Shown: positions 11,362 through 26,768 of the stretch, piece by piece | Layout: every line of letters starts with the position of its first letter | Numbering within the stretch: the stretch's first letter is position 1 | Assembly: GCA_947479935.1 (NCBI GenBank) | Contig: CANKBG010000002.1 | Location: 62,001 to 126,000 of the forward strand | Length of the DNA stretch: 64,000 nt | Origin: Comamonadaceae bacterium | GTDB lineage: Bacteria > Pseudomonadota > Gammaproteobacteria > Burkholderiales > Burkholderiaceae_C | Direction: 5' to 3' | Notes under the pieces: model-generated | What the model was told of the DNA's origin: nothing | The model's input: the letters and a program-made list of their open reading frames with translations, nothing else | Databases searched by the model: none | Translations under genes and position numbers: made by a program

Positions 11362-12666
11362 TTAATTTGCGCCTGGCACGTTACGGCGGGGTGAGCCCGT
11401 AAACAGCTGACGGGGACGACCGATTTTGTATTCAGGGTCTCCAATCATTTCGTTCAATTGGGCAATCCAGCCCACGGTGCGGGCCTGTGCGAAAACGCCG
11501 GTGAACAAGTTCACTGGAATGCCAATGGCGCGCTGAACGATGCCAGAGTAGAAGTCGACATTGGGGTACAGCTTACGTGACACAAAGTAGTCGTCTTCCA
11601 AAGCGATTTTTTCAACTTGCTTGGCCAATTTGAACAAGGGGTCGTTTTCCAAGCCCAGTTCAGCCAAAACTTCGTTGCAAGTCTCTTGCATGAGTTTGGC
11701 GCGAGGGTCGTAGTTTTTGTAAACACGGTGACCGAAGCCCATGAGCTTGACGCCAGAGTTTTTGTCTTTGACTTGTTCCATGAACTCGCCCACTTTGGCG
11801 ATGCCACCCATTTTTTGAATATCGTCCAACATGTTCAAGCACGCTTCGTTGGCGCCGCCGTGGGCTGGTCCCCACAAGCAAGCCACGCCAGCTGCAATGG
11901 CAGCAAAAGGATTGGTGCCTGACGAGCCGCACAAACGCACAGTCGATGTGGAAGCGTTTTGCTCGTGGTCTGCATGCAAGATAAAAATGCGGTCCAAGGC
12001 ACGCTCGAGTACAGGGTTGACCACGTAGTCCTCGCAAGGAACGCCAAACATCATCCGCAAAAAGTTGCCAGAATAAGACAAACTGTTTTGGGGGTACATG
12101 AAAGGCTGGCCGATGCCGTACTTGTATGCCATGGCCACTAAGGTGGGCATTTTGGCAATCAGTCGGATGGCTGAAATTTCGCGGTGCTCAGGATTGGTGA
12201 TGTCGGTGCTGTCGTGATAGAAAGCAGACAAAGCGCCCACCAAGCCGGTTAAGACGGCCATCGGGTGCGCATCACGACGAAAACCGCGCAAGAAAAACTG
12301 CATCTGCTCGTTCACCATGGTGTGGTTGTTCACCAACTTGTGAAAATCTGTGCTTTGCTTGGCGTCGGGTAAATCGCCCTTTAAAAGCAAATAGCAAGTG
12401 TCCAAAAAGTCGCCATGGTTGGCCAATTGCTCGATGGGATAACCGCGGTAAAGCAACTCACCTTTGTCACCGTCAATAAAGGTGATGCCTGATTGGCAAG
12501 AGGCGGTTGACAGGAAACCAGGGTCATAAGTGAACATGCCGCTTTGTCCGTACAACTTGCGAATATCGATCACATCGGGGCCGATATTGCCGCTGTAAAC
12601 GGGCATTTCAATGCTGGGGGTGCCGTTACTGAACGACAGGGTTGCTTTGTTGTCAGCAAGTTTCAT
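11362..12666 (-). CDS. gltA: Citrate synthase
   Basis: [52 protein letters not shown]. Confidence 0.97.
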
Positions 12667-12746
12667 GATTCAATTTCCTCTGGTAATCAGTCTATTCAAA
12701 TGGTTTTATTTGCAAAAAATAACTTGCAAATGTCCGTCGTTTCAAT

Positions 12747-13037
12747 TCATGCCATCAGCATGGTCAGCACTTCGCTGGCTTCTTCAGATTCAATCTCTGA
12801 ACTGAGGGGCTTGCGTTTCATCAGCAAGTCCATCAGATCATTGTCTGACAAATCCATCAACACATACATCCCTCGCGCTTGGCCCACTGTCATTTCACGC
12901 GCATGTCGGTTAAAGAATCGCTCAATGAAAAGATCATTCTCAAGCAAGCCACGGCGACACCGCCAGCGCAATTTGCTCAGAGCGCGCTCGCTCAGAAGGT
13001 CTTGGCGGTCTAATCCTTCTAACAGTTCATCTCCCAT
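12747..13037 (-). CDS. sdhE: Succinate dehydrogenase assembly factor SdhE family (flavinylation)
   Basis: 96 aa between sdhB and gltA; SKLRWRCRRGLLENDLFIERFF contains the RGxxE-type motif region. Confidence 0.88.
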   Translation of the reverse strand: MGDELLEGLDRQDLLSERALSKLRWRCRRGLLENDLFIERFFNRHAREMTVGQARGMYVLMDLSDNDLMDLLMKRKPLSSEIESEEASEVLTMLMA

Positions 13038-13065
13038 TTCGCAGCTCTTTTCATTAGATCTTCGA

Positions 13066-13770
13066 TTAAATGGCGCGTCGCACCATCATCTCTTTGATCT
13101 TGCCAATCGCTTTGGTGGGGTTCAGGTTCTTTGGGCACACATCGACGCAGTTCATGATGGTGTGGCATCGGAACAGGCGGTAGGGGTCTTCCAAGTTGTC
13201 CAAACGCTCAGCCGTGCCGTGGTCGCGGCTGTCAGCCAAAAATCGATAAGCTTGCAGCAAGCCGGCAGGCCCGACAAACTTGTCTGGGTTCCACCAGAAG
13301 CTGGGGCAACTGGTGGAGCAACTGGCGCACAAAATGCACTCATACAAGCCATCCAGTTCTTCGCGCTCTTCGGGGCTTTGCAAACGCTCTTTTTCAGGCG
13401 GAATGGTGTCGTTGATCAAGTAAGGCTTGATCGAGTTGTATTGCTTGAAAAACTGCGTCATGTCCACAATCAAATCACGCACCACAGGCAAGCCAGGCAA
13501 TGGTTTTAAGACAATTTTGCCAGGCAAGGTAAGCATGTTGGTCAAACAGGCCAGGCCATTTTTACCATTGATGTTCATGGCATCAGAGCCGCACACGCCT
13601 TCGCGACATGAGCGGCGGAAAGACAAAGTGGGATCGACTTTTTTCAGCTTCATCAAGGCGTCTAAAAGCATGCGCTCGTGCCCATCCAATTCCACCTCAA
13701 TGCTTTGCATGTAAGGCTTGGCATCTTTGTCTGGATCGTAGCGATAGATTTCAAAAGTACGTAGAGTCAT
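13066..13770 (-). CDS. sdhB: Succinate dehydrogenase iron-sulfur subunit
   Basis: [58 protein letters not shown]. Confidence 0.96.
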
Positions 13771-13788
13771 GATTCAACCTTAAGGGAT

Positions 13789-15594
13789 TTAGAAAGTCCG
13801 AACTTTGGGTGGCACGGAGTCCACTGTCAGGGGTTTCAAGTTAACGGGCTTGTAGGTCAGGCTGTTGGTGTCGCTGTGCCACAAAGAGTGTTTCATCCAG
13901 TTGGCATCGTCTCGACCCAAAGGCGCGATCGGGTCATCTGCTGGACGCTCATAGTCGCTCACAGTGTGTGCGCCACGGCACTCTTTGCGAGCGGCAGCCG
14001 ACACCATGGTGGCCTGTGCGCATTCGATCAAATTTTCAACTTCAAGCGCTTCAATACGTGCCGTGTTGAATACTTTGGAAGTGTCGATCAAGGCAATGGC
14101 ATTGACACGTTCGCGAATCTCTGCAATTTTCACAGCACCTTCGTCCATGGTGGCCTGCGTGCGGAACACCGCAGCATGTTTTTGCATGGTGGCGCGCATG
14201 TCATTGGCCACATCTTGCGAGTACTCACCCTTGCGACCTTCTAAGCGGTTCAGGCGAGCCAAAGTCAAGTCGGCTGCATCTTTTGGCATGTCCTTGTGGG
14301 CCTTGGTGTTGCTGGCGAAATCGACAATGTGATTGCCAGCCGCACGGCCAAACACCAAGAGGTCAAGCAATGAGTTGGTGCCCAAACGATTTGCACCGTG
14401 CACACTCACGCAAGAGCATTCGCCAACAGCGTACAAGCCGTTGACCACTGCGTTGTGACTGCTGGCAGTTTGGATGACCACTTGTCCGTGAATATTGGTT
14501 GGGATGCCGCCCATTTGATAGTGAATGGTTGGCACAACTGGAATAGGCTCTTTGGTGATGTCAACGTTGGCAAAATTCACACCAATTTCATACACAGACG
14601 GCAAGCGTTTGTGGATGGTTTCTGCACCCAAGTGATCTAGTTTTAACAGCACATAGTCTTTGTTAGGGCCGCAGCCACGACCTTCTTTAATTTCTTGGTC
14701 CATGGCGCGCGACACGAAATCTCGGGGTGCCAAGTCTTTCAGTGTGGGCGCGTAGCGTTCCATGAACCTTTCACCGTTGCTGTTCATCAAAATAGCGCCT
14801 TCACCGCGGCAACCTTCTGTGAGTAACACACCGGCACCGGCAACCCCCGTGGGGTGGAATTGCCAAAATTCCATGTCTTCCAATGGAATGCCAGCGCGTG
14901 CAGCCATGCCCAATCCGTCGCCAGTGTTAATGAAGGCATTGGTGGACGCTGCAAAGATACGGCCTGCGCCGCCAGTGGCCAGCAAGACAGTTTTGGCGTG
15001 CAAGATGTGCAGGTCGCCAGTTTCCATTTCGAGTGCTGTGACGCCCACCACATCGCCTTCGGCGTCGCGAATCAGGTCAAGCGCCATCCACTCCACAAAG
15101 AAACTGGTGTTGGCCTTGATGTTTTGTTGGTAAAGCGTGTGCAGCATCGCATGGCCTGTACGGTCAGCGGAAGCACAAGCGCGTTGGACTGATTTTTCTC
15201 CGTAATTTGAGGTGTGGCCGCCAAAGGGACGTTGGTAAATGGTGCCATCGGGGTTACGGTCAAAAGGCATGCCCATGTGCTCTAAGTCATACACAACTTT
15301 AGGCGCTTCACGGCACATGTATTCAATGGCGTCTTGGTCTCCAAGCCAATCAGAACCTTTGATGGTGTCGTAGAAGTGATAGTGCCAGTTGTCATCTGAC
15401 ATATTGCCCAATGACGCGCCAATACCGCCCTGCGCTGCCACTGTGTGTGAGCGAGTGGGAAACACTTTGGAGAGCACGGCCACATTCAAGCCGGCCCGTG
15501 CCAGTTGCAATGAGGCACGCATGCCGGAGCCACCGGCGCCGACAATCACGACGTCAAATTTACGCGTGGCGATCTTGTCTTTGGTGTAAGTCAT
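13789..15594 (-). CDS. sdhA: Succinate dehydrogenase flavoprotein subunit
   Basis: VDVVIVGAGGSGMRASLQLA-type FAD motif; SHTVAAQGGIGASLGN flavinylation His region. Confidence 0.96.
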   Translation of the reverse strand: MTYTKDKIATRKFDVVIVGAGGSGMRASLQLARAGLNVAVLSKVFPTRSHTVAAQGGIGASLGNMSDDNWHYHFYDTIKGSDWLGDQDAIEYMCREAPKVVYDLEHMGMPFDRNPDGTIYQRPFGGHTSNYGEKSVQRACASADRTGHAMLHTLYQQNIKANTSFFVEWMALDLIRDAEGDVVGVTALEMETGDLHILHAKTVLLATGGAGRIFAASTNAFINTGDGLGMAARAGIPLEDMEFWQFHPTGVAGAGVLLTEGCRGEGAILMNSNGERFMERYAPTLKDLAPRDFVSRAMDQEIKEGRGCGPNKDYVLLKLDHLGAETIHKRLPSVYEIGVNFANVDITKEPIPVVPTIHYQMGGIPTNIHGQVVIQTASSHNAVVNGLYAVGECSCVSVHGANRLGTNSLLDLLVFGRAAGNHIVDFASNTKAHKDMPKDAADLTLARLNRLEGRKGEYSQDVANDMRATMQKHAAVFRTQATMDEGAVKIAEIRERVNAIALIDTSKVFNTARIEALEVENLIECAQATMVSAAARKECRGAHTVSDYERPADDPIAPLGRDDANWMKHSLWHSDTNSLTYKPVNLKPLTVDSVPPKVRTF

Positions 15595-15662
15595 TTTGTG
15601 TGAGATCTTATTGAATGGGAGTAGGGTTCAGAGTCTGCAAAAGCGTGTGTTTCTGAACAGAA

Positions 15663-16028
15663 TCAAAGACGCCACAGGGCTTGCACCGCCCAACCGGCGC
15701 AGCCGACCAGCCAGACTAAGGAGGCGACGTGTAAGAAAAGACGCAAACCCAAGGGTTTGATGTAGTCCATCCAAATGTCACGAATGCCAATCCATGCGTG
15801 ATAGAGCAAGGCGAGAATGGTGACGAACGTGAGAACTTTCATCCACTGAGCGGCAAAAATACCAGCCCACTCTTCGTAGCCGATGGGGCCACTTGTGAAA
15901 ATCACTTGTGCCATCACCACCAAAGTAAAAATGGCCATCAGTGCTGCTGTAACGCGTTGTACCAACCAGTCGCGAATGCCGTAGTGAGCGCCAACCGTGA
16001 CGCGTTTAGAACCGTAATTAACTGACAT
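15663..16028 (-). CDS. sdhD: Succinate dehydrogenase membrane anchor subunit
   Basis: MSVNYGSKRVTVGAHYGIRDWLVQRVTAALMAIF; three hydrophobic segments; gene order. Confidence 0.92.
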   Translation of the reverse strand: MSVNYGSKRVTVGAHYGIRDWLVQRVTAALMAIFTLVVMAQVIFTSGPIGYEEWAGIFAAQWMKVLTFVTILALLYHAWIGIRDIWMDYIKPLGLRLFLHVASLVWLVGCAGWAVQALWRL

Positions 16029-16044
16029 ATTGATTCGTTCCTGA

Positions 16045-16476
16045 TTAGTAGAGGCCAAATAATTTGGCGGCCAGCACAGCCGTTAAGCCCAAGCTCAAAA
16101 CCAAGGTGGCCATGGCAGAGGAGGCCCCAAATTCTTTGGTCACTGCATGGTAAACATCCATGTACAAGTGACGAACGCCAGCAATGAAGTGATGCAAGAA
16201 GGCCCAAATGATGGCCAGTGCGACCAACTTCATGAACCAACCGGGAATGAAGCCAATACCCACATTGAATGCGGCCGCAAAAGTGGCAAATGAAATTTCC
16301 GATGTGATGGAGGTGTCAAACATCCAAATAATGAACGGCATGAGCAAAAACATCAGGGCGCCGCTGACACGGTGCAAGATTGAAACCCAGCCCGCGGCGG
16401 GCAAACGATAAGTTGGCAAATCGCTGAAAGCGTTGATGTTGCGAAATTCAGGCCTCTGACGGGCGTTTTCGGTCAT
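16045..16476 (-). CDS. sdhC: Succinate dehydrogenase cytochrome b556 subunit
   Basis: RPEFRNINAFSDLPTYRLPAAGWVSILHRVSGALMFL; HHFIAGVRHLYMD heme-ligand region. Confidence 0.93.
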   Translation of the reverse strand: MTENARQRPEFRNINAFSDLPTYRLPAAGWVSILHRVSGALMFLLMPFIIWMFDTSITSEISFATFAAAFNVGIGFIPGWFMKLVALAIIWAFLHHFIAGVRHLYMDVYHAVTKEFGASSAMATLVLSLGLTAVLAAKLFGLY

Positions 16477-16619: not shown

Positions 16620-17402
16620 TCAATTGAGTGCGTTGAGATAGTGATGCGAGTTTGTGACGTAAAAGCCGCGGCGCAGTTCCATCGGGGTGTCATTGTAGGT
16701 ATAGGCCACCCGTTCCACGCTGAGAAGAGGGGTGTGAGATTTAATCTCAAGCAGCTTGCATTGAGCCTCGTCCGGCACCACTGCCTTGATCCTTTCGTCA
16801 GCGCGAACCATTCGAACGCCAAACTCAGTTTCGAAGAGAGCATACATGGGGCCATCATAGTCACTTAAGCGTTCTGCAGTGAGGCCTTTAAAGGGTGCCC
16901 CTGGCAGCCATAAATCTTCCAAGATGGTGGGGGCGCCGGCAAATGAGAGAACCCGGCGGACCTGAAGGACGGCATCGCCAGTGCGCAAGGCAAGGGCGCG
17001 GCCAATGTCAGCGTTGGCTCTGAGTTTCTTGCAATCGATGATTTTTCTCTGGGCAGGCCCTTCGCTCTTGGGGTCGCCCAAGTCGGGCATGAGTTTTAAA
17101 AAGCGATATTGCACCTGCTGTTCGGCGTGAGTGGCCACAAACGTACCTTTGCCCTGCCTTCGAATCAGCAGGTTGTCGCCGGCCAGTTCGTCGATGGCTT
17201 TTCGAACCGTGCCCTGGCTGACTCGGTACCGCGCTGCCAATTCCATTTCGCTGGGGATGCCTTCGCCCGGTTTCCACTCGCCCGATTGCAAGCCTTGCAG
17301 GATGAGGCCCTTAATTTGTTGGTACAGGGGGCTGAACGCTGGCGCTGCGCTCAAGGCATCGTTCAAACCAGCAGAATCTTCAGGAAAAACTTGGGATGTC
17401 AT
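16620..17402 (-). CDS. GntR-family transcriptional regulator with UTRA (HutC-type) effector domain
   Basis: N-terminal wHTH LYQQIKGLILQGLQSGEWKPGEGIPSEMELAARYRVSQGTVRKAIDELAGDNLLIRRQGKGTFVA; UTRA-like C-terminus. Confidence 0.92.
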   Translation of the reverse strand: MTSQVFPEDSAGLNDALSAAPAFSPLYQQIKGLILQGLQSGEWKPGEGIPSEMELAARYRVSQGTVRKAIDELAGDNLLIRRQGKGTFVATHAEQQVQYRFLKLMPDLGDPKSEGPAQRKIIDCKKLRANADIGRALALRTGDAVLQVRRVLSFAGAPTILEDLWLPGAPFKGLTAERLSDYDGPMYALFETEFGVRMVRADERIKAVVPDEAQCKLLEIKSHTPLLSVERVAYTYNDTPMELRRGFYVTNSHHYLNALN

Positions 17403-17448
17403 GAGGATGGCCCTTGAACAGGACAGACATAAAAGTGAGGCAATGATA

Positions 17449-17460
17449 TCTTATATAAGA
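17449..17460. promoter_or_regulatory. Perfect palindrome TCTTATATAAGA, candidate operator in the gntR/mdh divergent intergenic region
   Basis: Exact 12-bp self-complementary sequence; 15 bp around it recurs inverted at the 26370..26381 site; followed 11 nt later by TTGACT (17472). Confidence 0.6.
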
Positions 17461-17539
17461 CATAAGACAAATTGACTTTGGAGGGTTTTCGCGAGTAAAC
17501 TCGAAAGCTGTTTGCCTGTATGCATTTTCTGTGTGTACC

Positions 17540-17629: not shown

Positions 17630-18616
17630 ATGAGCAAAAAGCCCGTTCGCGTCGCCGTTACAGGTGCCGCAGGTCAAATTGGATACGCATTGCTGTTCCG
17701 CATCGCCTCTGGCGAAATGTTGGGCAAAGACCAGCCTGTTATTTTGCAGTTGCTAGAAATTCCTGACGAAAAAGCCCAAAAAGCTTTGAAGGGCGTGATG
17801 ATGGAGTTGGACGACTGCGCCTTTCCATTGCTTGCGGGCATGGAGGCTCACTCAGACCCTATGACTGCTTTCAAAGACACCGACTACGCTTTGTTGGTGG
17901 GTTCACGTCCGCGCGGTCCTGGCATGGAGCGTGCTGAATTGCTCGCCATCAACGGTGCCATCTTCACAGCGCAAGGCAAGGCCTTGAATGCCGTGGCTTC
18001 GCGCAATGTGAAAGTTTTGGTGGTCGGCAACCCCGCCAACACCAACGCCTACATCGCCATGAAGAGCGCCCCTGATCTCAAACCAGCCAATTTCACAGCC
18101 ATGCTGCGTTTGGATCACAACCGAGCAGCCTCACAAATTGCGGCTAAAACCGGTAAAGCTGTGGCGGATATTCAAAAGTTGTGCGTTTGGGGCAACCACT
18201 CTCCCACAATGTACGCCGATTACCGTTTTGCCACCATCAAAGGCGAATCAGTGAAGACCATGATCAACGACCAGGAATGGAATGCCAACGTGTTCTTGCC
18301 GACAGTGGGCAAGCGCGGCGCAGCCATCATTGAAGCGCGTGGCTTGTCTTCAGCCGCCTCGGCTGCCAACGCTGCCATCGACCACATGCGCGACTGGGCC
18401 TTGGGCACCGAAGGCCATTGGGTCACCATGGGCATTCCTTCTCAAGGCTGGTACGGTATTCCCAAAGATGTCATGTTCGGTTTCCCCGTCACATGCACCA
18501 ATGGCGAATACAAAGTGGTCGAAGGTTTGGAAATTGATGCCTTCAGCCAAGCTTGCATCGATAAAACTTTGAAAGAGTTGACAGACGAGCAAGCCGGCGT
18601 GGCTCACTTGATCTAA
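17630..18616 (+). CDS. mdh: Malate dehydrogenase
   Basis: [40 protein letters not shown] at 17630; [18 protein letters not shown]. Confidence 0.97.
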
Positions 18617-24143: not shown

Positions 24144-25085
24144 TTAACTTGAGACCTTGCCCAATAGCAAAAACTCCATCAGTGCTTTTTGTGCGTGCAT
24201 GCGATTTTCCGCTTCGTCCCACACCACAGACTGAGGCCCATCAATGACTTCTGCGCTAACTTCTTCGCCTCGGTGTGCAGGCAGGCAATGCATGAAAAGT
24301 GCATCTGCTTTGGCAACTTTCATCATCTCTTCATCGACGCACCAATCTGCAAACGCTTTTTTACGCGCTTCATTTTCTGCTTCATAGCCCATGCTGGTCC
24401 AGACGTCGGTGGTGACCAAGTCGGCGCCTTCACAGGCTTGCATGGGGTCTTTGAAAAATTGTGTGCTGGCCGCGCTTCGAACACCTACCACTGTGGGGTC
24501 AACTTCATATCCGCTGGGGGTGCTGAGATTGACTTTGAAGCCAAGCACATCAGCCGCTTGGAGCCATGTGTTGGCCATGTTGTTGCCGTCTCCCACCCAA
24601 GCCACCGTTTTGCCTTGAATGGAACCGCGGTGTTCTATGTAGGTAAAGATATCCGCCAAAATTTGGCAAGGGTGAAACTCGTTGGTTAAACCGTTGATGA
24701 CGGGAACGCGCGAGTGCTCGGCAAACTTTTCAATTTTGTCTTGCCCATAAGTTCGGATCATGACCAGGTCAACCATGCGACTGATCACGCGCGCACTGTC
24801 TTCTATGGGTTCGGCACGTCCAAGTTGACTGTCGCCCGTGGTGAGGTGCACCACAGATCCACCGAGTTGATACATGCCTGCTTCGAAGCTCACACGAGTG
24901 CGCGTCGAGGCTTTTTCAAAAATCATGGCCAAGGTTCGATCTGTGAGTGGCTGAAATTTTTCGTAGGCTTTGAACTTGGCTTTGATGAAGGCAGCACGTT
25001 TGAAAATGTGTGCGTATTCATCGGCTGTTAAGTCAGTGAACTGCAAATAATGCCGAGGTGGCTTGGCCAGTAAATGGGATGACAT
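24144..25085 (-). CDS. argF: Ornithine carbamoyltransferase
   Basis: IFEKASTRTRVSFEAGMYQLGG; FMHCLPAHRGEEV. Confidence 0.96.
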   Translation of the reverse strand: MSSHLLAKPPRHYLQFTDLTADEYAHIFKRAAFIKAKFKAYEKFQPLTDRTLAMIFEKASTRTRVSFEAGMYQLGGSVVHLTTGDSQLGRAEPIEDSARVISRMVDLVMIRTYGQDKIEKFAEHSRVPVINGLTNEFHPCQILADIFTYIEHRGSIQGKTVAWVGDGNNMANTWLQAADVLGFKVNLSTPSGYEVDPTVVGVRSAASTQFFKDPMQACEGADLVTTDVWTSMGYEAENEARKKAFADWCVDEEMMKVAKADALFMHCLPAHRGEEVSAEVIDGPQSVVWDEAENRMHAQKALMEFLLLGKVSS

Positions 25086-25090
25086 CGAAA

Positions 25091-26287
25091 TTACTCCGAT
25101 AGAAATTGATGAATCAGGGGCAGCAAAATGTCTGTCACTTCATCGGCCTCGGCTTGCGTCATGATCAGCGGAGGCACGATGCGGATCACGCTGTCGGCCG
25201 TGACGCTGATCAATAAACCCGCTTCGGCTGCGCGAAGTGTGAGAGCACCACAAGGCTTGTCAAGTTCAATGCCCAACATGAGGCCTTGACCGCGAATTTC
25301 TTTGACGCCCTTTGCACCTGCCAGTCCTTTTTCCAGTCGAGTCTTGAGATGCGTGCCAACGCGCGCCGCGTTTTCGAGCAGGCCATCTTTTTCCATGATT
25401 CGAATGGTTTCTAAACCCGCGCGCATGGCCAAGGGATTGCCGCCGAAGGTGGTGCCGTGATTGCCGGGTTGAAAGATATGGGCCGCTTTAGGCCCAGCCA
25501 CCACCGCAGCAATCGGAACCCCCGACCCTAGGCCTTTGGCCAGGGGCATGACGTCGGCTTGAATGCCTGCCCATTGGTGTGCAAACCACTTGCCTGTTCT
25601 GCCCATGCCGCATTGAACTTCGTCAATCATCATGAGCCAATCTTTTTCATTGCACAACGCACGTACATCGCGCAAATAGTCCATGTGCATGGGGTTCACG
25701 CCACCTTCACCTTGAATGGTTTCGAAAAACACAGCCACCACGTTCGGATTGTTTTCGGTGGCCTTTTTCAAGGCGTCAATGTTATTGACGGCGACGCGCA
25801 AAAAGCCTTCAACCAAGGGGCCAAAGCCTTCTTGAATTTTGGTGTTACCCGTGGCGCTCAAAGTGGCAATACTGCGACCGTGAAAGGCCTTTTCATAAAC
25901 CACAATGACGGGTGACTTGATGCCTTTGTCATGGCCAAACTTGCGCGCCAATTTAATGGCCGCTTCGTTGGCTTCTAGGCCCGTAGAGCAAAAAAACACG
26001 TTGGTCATGCCTGACAACTCAACCAACTTTGCGGCTAATTTTTCTTGATTGGGGACGTGGTAGTAGTTACAACTGTGAATAATTTTGCTCAGTTGATCTT
26101 GCAGGGCGGGAACCAATTCTGGGTGGTTATGGCCCAAAGTGTTCACTGCAATACCACCCAATGCATCTAAGTAAACCTTGCCATTCACATCCCACAGTCG
26201 GCAACCTTGACCATGGCTGATTGCGATGGGCAATCGGCCATAGGTGTTCATGGTGTGCGGCGAAGTGGCTTCAATGAAAGCAGGCAT
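25091..26287 (-). CDS. argD: Acetylornithine transaminase
   Basis: VYLDALGGIAVNTLGHNHPELVPALQ; PLP site GCGMGRTGKWFAHQ...MPLAKGLGSGVPIAA; adjacent to argF. Confidence 0.92.
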   Translation of the reverse strand: MPAFIEATSPHTMNTYGRLPIAISHGQGCRLWDVNGKVYLDALGGIAVNTLGHNHPELVPALQDQLSKIIHSCNYYHVPNQEKLAAKLVELSGMTNVFFCSTGLEANEAAIKLARKFGHDKGIKSPVIVVYEKAFHGRSIATLSATGNTKIQEGFGPLVEGFLRVAVNNIDALKKATENNPNVVAVFFETIQGEGGVNPMHMDYLRDVRALCNEKDWLMMIDEVQCGMGRTGKWFAHQWAGIQADVMPLAKGLGSGVPIAAVVAGPKAAHIFQPGNHGTTFGGNPLAMRAGLETIRIMEKDGLLENAARVGTHLKTRLEKGLAGAKGVKEIRGQGLMLGIELDKPCGALTLRAAEAGLLISVTADSVIRIVPPLIMTQAEADEVTDILLPLIHQFLSE

Positions 26288-26369
26288 GCTGAGAACTCCT
26301 CTAAAAGAAATCGGCCCAACGAAGAGGGCCGCTGAGATGAGATTTTAGGGCCAGAAATTAAGTGTCAAG

Positions 26370-26381
26370 TCTTATATAAGA
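26370..26381. promoter_or_regulatory. Second perfect TCTTATATAAGA palindrome, argD/DUF3579 divergent intergenic region
   Basis: GTCTTATATAAGAT is the exact reverse complement of the 14-mer at the gntR/mdh site; on the minus strand TTGACA begins 1 nt past it. Confidence 0.6.
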
Positions 26382-26453
26382 TACAATACTTGTGCAATGC
26401 AGCATCTAGGCGATCCCTGTTGCCTGCCCATCCATTTTCCTAACCTCTGATCG

Positions 26454-26768
26454 ATGGTTTCAAATAACGCCAAAGAAGTATTGATCCAAGGCATCACCTT
26501 GGATGGACGAACTTTCAGGCCCAGTGACTGGGCTGAACGATTGGCTGGCGTGATGGGTCAGTTCCGACCGGGGGGTGCCACTCCAGGCAGCCATCTTAGC
26601 TACTCACCTTGGTGTATTCCTCAAACCATTGGGGGTGTCAGGTGTGTGGTGGTTCACACCGATCTGCGCGGTTATGAACCCATGGCCTGGGACTTTTTGA
26701 TGAACTTCGCCAAAGACAACAATTTGCAAGTGTCAGAAGCTTGTATCTTGGCCGAACCTCCAAAGTAA
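26454..26768 (+). CDS. DUF3579-type small protein (104 aa)
   Basis: EVLIQGITLDGRTFRPSDWAERLAGVMGQFRPGG; length and motif match that family from memory. Confidence 0.75.
   Translation: MVSNNAKEVLIQGITLDGRTFRPSDWAERLAGVMGQFRPGGATPGSHLSYSPWCIPQTIGGVRCVVVHTDLRGYEPMAWDFLMNFAKDNNLQVSEACILAEPPK

Follow-up and report, generated by a model that had tools for sequence, protein, structure and literature searches.

The window, a stretch of 64,000 nucleotides, is part of the 2.79 Mb assembly of a Limnohabitans-like member of the Comamonadaceae. It carries a gene for a GntR/UTRA regulator (gntR) that is followed by sdhC, sdhD, sdhA, sdhB and gltA and faces away from mdh, a CitE-like lyase gene and acnB. 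At a second place, argD and argF diverge from the gene of a DUF3579 protein (Table 1). Both divergent spacers hold an exact copy of the 12-bp palindrome TCTTATATAAGA. A preliminary description of this DNA had reported matching 14-mers at 17448-17461 and 26369-26382, each between divergent genes (gntR(-)/mdh(+) and argD(-)/DUF3579(+)), with a GntR/UTRA regulator adjoining the first, and had proposed that this protein binds both sites and links the TCA cycle to arginine/DUF3579 expression. Both 14-mers, the gene orientations and the two regulator domains are as described there.

Table 1. Genes and predicted regulatory features at the two sites (positions in the window).
Feature	Position	Strand	Remark
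sdhC, sdhD, sdhA, sdhB, gltA	11362..16476	-	downstream of gntR; synteny in relatives
GntR/UTRA (HutC-subfamily) regulator, SdhR-like	16620..17402	-	PF00392 E=5.6e-20, PF07702 E=5.5e-30
Predicted gntR-sdhCDAB-gltA promoter	17443..17470	-	-35 TTGTCT 17470-17465, -10 TATCAT 17448-17443
SdhR-type palindromic core TCTTATATAAGA	17449..17460	.	gntR/mdh intergenic region
Additional half-box CATAAGA	17461..17467	+	adjoins palindrome; columns near-invariant in orthologous loci
Predicted mdh promoter	17472..17501	+	-35 TTGACT, 18 nt, -10 TAAACT; downstream of operator
mdh, malate dehydrogenase	17630..18616	+	then CitE-like lyase and acnB
argD	25091..26287	-	divergent neighbour, argF at 24144-25085; possible, weakly supported target
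Second exact palindrome TCTTATATAAGA	26370..26381	.	between argD and DUF3579
Predicted DUF3579 -10, TACAAT	26382..26387	+	abuts palindrome
DUF3579 protein (PF12112)	26454..26768	+	most likely target of second site

The palindrome is rare in the genome

Allowing up to two mismatches, we found two matches in the window, both exact, compared with a mean of 0.44 for shuffled controls (4 of 100 shuffles reached two). The whole genome holds three exact copies and none of the reversed palindrome; the third, the only one outside the window, lies upstream of aceA (isocitrate lyase). Two further copies carry one mismatch: C26:31974 is situated 30 bp from the aceA site, and C30:5172, which falls within a coding ORF, was dropped as a regulon member. 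At two mismatches there was no genome-wide excess (23 copies versus 58 for the reversed control). An extension of the regulon to such sites was therefore dropped, and weight is given to exact and near-exact copies only. Two of the checks that the preliminary description had proposed came out in favour of the motif: the genome-wide search returned a rare and mostly intergenic palindrome, and the upstream comparison found it kept upstream of orthologues.

The palindrome is the core of the SdhR operator

A full-text literature search with the 12-mer matched one paper (Suvorova, Korostelev and Gelfand 2015; PMC4494728), where it lies inside the operator of SdhR, a HutC-subfamily GntR regulator. 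This operator is given there as a 'palindrome with additional symmetry', TCTTATGTCTTATATAAGACATAAGA, with Suvorova et al. 2012 (10.1128/JB.00163-12) cited as its source. The palindrome is therefore already known. At the gntR/mdh site the core is extended by the same second half-box as in the published operator, giving TCTTATATAAGACATAAGA at 17449-17467, so that 19 bases of the 26-base SdhR motif are present. The other outer half-box, TCTTATG, is absent on the gntR side of this site and in most relatives. The argD/DUF3579 copy has the same core but, unlike the SdhR operator, lacks the second half-box.

The regulator itself belongs to the same subfamily, with a GntR helix-turn-helix plus a UTRA domain, and adjoins sdh genes: the order gntR, sdhC, sdhA, gltA is found in the window and in relatives. 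No SdhR model was matched among the NCBIfam models. Scores fell below the curated cut-offs for HutC (116 versus 220 bits), PhnF (106 versus 157 bits) and TreR (75 versus 212 bits), and far below the NCBIfam cut-off for PdhR (50 versus 330 bits), and assignment to any of these four was rejected on that ground. Our literature searches retrieved no experimental study of this regulator. In Shewanellaceae, PdhR and PsrA control sdh, gltA and aceBA (PMC5343134) and are likewise local regulators of several TCA-cycle operons, but the regulators differ: PdhR, from the GntR family, serves pyruvate metabolism, and PsrA is of the TetR family.

Regulator and motif occur together across genomes

Searching GTDB with the regulator protein gave 80 related loci. 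Each has the palindrome upstream of gntR; it is exact in 65 and has one mismatch in 15. In a sample of gntR upstream regions, one per genome, it occurs within one mismatch in 43 of 50; this sample was partly picked so as to cover genomes whose orthologue is distant or that lack an exact match. At least four of the 50 regions have no recognisable palindrome, and some of these may reflect start-site errors. The 121 family genomes surveyed, sampled at about one per genus, together hold 214 exact copies versus 5 of the reversed palindrome, roughly 40 to 1.

An exact palindrome was found in 111 of the 118 family genomes with the regulator and in none of the three without (Fisher p = 4e-4). At the level of the order, 34 of 35 genomes with a strong orthologue carry the palindrome, compared with 27 of 86 without one (p = 4e-12). 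Both p values overstate significance and serve as guides only, because the genomes share ancestry. The 27 order-level genomes with the palindrome and no strong orthologue may represent chance or weaker orthologues. That a single GntR protein would bind both sites, as the preliminary description had proposed, is well supported by this co-occurrence together with the conservation of the motif.

Promoter geometry at the gntR/mdh site

In the predicted promoter of the gntR-sdhCDAB-gltA unit, the 16-nt spacer contains the palindrome and the -10 hexamer, whose columns are conserved, abuts it directly. The regulator is predicted to be autoregulated. On the other side, the TTGACT noted in the preliminary description does lie 11 nt past the palindrome toward mdh and forms the -35 element of a predicted mdh promoter, with a -10 hexamer that reads TACACT in relatives. 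Since the operator is placed upstream of this -35 element, the sign of control there is uncertain: the protein might repress or activate mdh, or the two divergent promoters might compete.

The second site most likely serves DUF3579

The argD/DUF3579 copy is exact in all seven close relatives whose locus reaches the site. We then compared the 108 family genomes (about one per genus) in which argD and DUF3579 are divergent. The spacer contains the palindrome within two mismatches in 55 of them, 41 being exact; the best match in the other 53 has four to seven mismatches and none has three, so the distribution is bimodal. The reversed palindrome was found in one of the 108 spacers, and shuffled palindromes in a mean of 0.5, the single high shuffle (16 of 108) being CTTTTATAAAAG, which itself resembles the motif. 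One could suppose that the match between the two window sites is chance or a generic feature of AT-rich promoters, given that promoters are AT-rich and that, at two mismatches, the palindrome is no more frequent in the genome than the control. The surplus of exact copies in the family and the 55 spacers against 0.5 contradict this, and we give that idea almost no credence. Its conservation marks the copy between argD and DUF3579 as a genuine site. Roughly half of the genera lack it, yet nearly all carry the regulator. Its presence is clustered on the argD/DUF3579 tree (14 changes versus 36 in shuffles), so the site was probably gained or lost several times.

Which of the two divergent genes would be controlled from this site can be read from its flanks. 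A -10-like hexamer facing DUF3579 (TAGAAT, TACAAT, TATAAT and similar) begins 0 to 4 nt past the palindrome in 49 of the 55 genomes with the site, and 0 to 2 nt past it in 48. On the argD side, CTTG is partly conserved, TTGAC occurs in two of the 55, and no column further out is strongly conserved. The distance from the palindrome to DUF3579 is also tighter (sd 23) than that to argD (sd 41). DUF3579 is therefore the better supported gene and is likely, rather than argD, to be the target of the second site. The preliminary description had pointed to a TTGACA 1 nt past the palindrome toward argD. It exists in the window but is not conserved, and the argument from a one-helical-turn difference between the two -35 spacings fails for this reason.

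The site might instead mainly control argD-argF and so link the TCA cycle to arginine synthesis. Its position in the argD/DUF3579 divergent spacer fits such a role, as do two features of its argD flank: the CTTG seen in most genomes, and a TCTAAAAT box, reading CTAAAAT in the window, that the eight closest genomes retain. A single operator could also serve both promoters. The scarcity of TTGAC, the absence of strongly conserved columns and the tighter geometry toward DUF3579 count against it, and we regard argD-argF as an unlikely main target. Control of argD in addition to DUF3579 is possible, because the CTAAAAT box is kept in the closest relatives. Of the proposed link between the TCA cycle and arginine/DUF3579, the DUF3579 part is thus favoured by promoter geometry and the arginine part is not.

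In the argD leader, a G+C-rich hairpin leads into a T-rich stretch (26312-26336, minus strand; CGGCCCTCTTCGTTGGGCCG ATTTCTTTTA), a sequence also found in seven close relatives. It is possibly an attenuator-like element; an Rfam search of the window gave no match, this hairpin included.

For the DUF3579 protein, one significant relative of solved structure was found, the uncharacterized protein 2l9d (E=1.9e-16). A PDB match to ORF56 (E = 0.26) was weak and treated as chance. Among the papers covered by our literature search, none names DUF3579.

Another factor, such as a GntR paralogue of the same specificity, could bind the palindrome at argD/DUF3579. The genome has six further GntR-related genes, and in one genome (G074) the gntR locus (L162) carries TCTTATAGAAGA while the DUF3579 locus (L133) carries the exact palindrome, so the two sites do not strictly co-vary. 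Against this, the window regulator has no other close homologue in its genome, the closest paralogue being only 31% identical, and three observations favour one protein: both sites share the 12-bp core exactly, their -10 geometry is the same, and regulator and motif co-occur. We consider a separate factor very improbable and retain the GntR/UTRA protein as the candidate for both sites.

Paired sites at aceA and sites in other genera

The two copies in the aceA promoter region are 30 bp apart, and the second is followed by CA and TAGAAT. Loci in other genera (L293-L296, L299, L300 and L304) likewise have two palindromes about 30 bp apart at aceA, one exact and the other usually with a mismatch. 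This pairing suggests that binding there might be cooperative or looped. Sites upstream of acnB in other genera have a geometry like that at aceA.

Upstream of aceA and its SdhR-type sites (L003:1380-1440) lie two repeats of 20 nt that resemble each other, AATTTCTTAATATGAAATAT and AATTTCTCAATATGAGAGAT. Their starts are 41 bp apart, and they are possibly sites of a second isocitrate lyase regulator. In another genome (G030, L298:1501), the palindrome occurs in exact form, together with a TCTTATG half-box, beside an acyl-CoA dehydrogenase-like gene, as judged by eye; this gene is a possible lineage-specific target.

A proposed SdhR-type regulon that includes DUF3579

Sequence, conservation, gene co-occurrence and predicted promoter geometry agree on one reading, which we hold with good confidence: both palindromes would be operators of the GntR/UTRA protein, an SdhR-type TCA-cycle regulator of the Comamonadaceae. 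We infer binding, repression and a ligand as follows. A dimer of the regulator would bind the 12-bp palindrome, and at the gntR/mdh site the second half-box as well. In the gntR-sdhCDAB-gltA, DUF3579 and aceA promoters, the bound protein would most likely repress by masking the spacer between -35 and -10, and sites at the -10 element or within the spacer suit a repressor that blocks RNA polymerase. A TCA-related ligand, sensed through the UTRA domain, would bring about release. At mdh, where the operator stops a short way before the -35 element, binding could either repress or activate. Counting against this reading are the gntR regions that have no recognisable palindrome, the regulator-bearing genera that lack the DUF3579 site, and the order-level genomes that carry a copy but no strong orthologue.

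The one-regulator idea of the preliminary description therefore stands, on a motif and regulator that were already known, and its arginine half is weak; a TCA-arginine link is not well supported. The present analysis ties the window regulator to the published motif and charts its sites throughout the family at the level of genera. The geometry predicts repression at sdh, aceA and DUF3579, and another outcome is possible at mdh. On balance, we favour the view that DUF3579 belongs to the SdhR regulon, as a conserved member, in roughly half of the Comamonadaceae genera. Membership in this TCA-cycle regulon would imply a role for DUF3579 in central carbon flux or in the response to it, possibly where this meets arginine synthesis, and offers a functional lead for an uncharacterised small protein.
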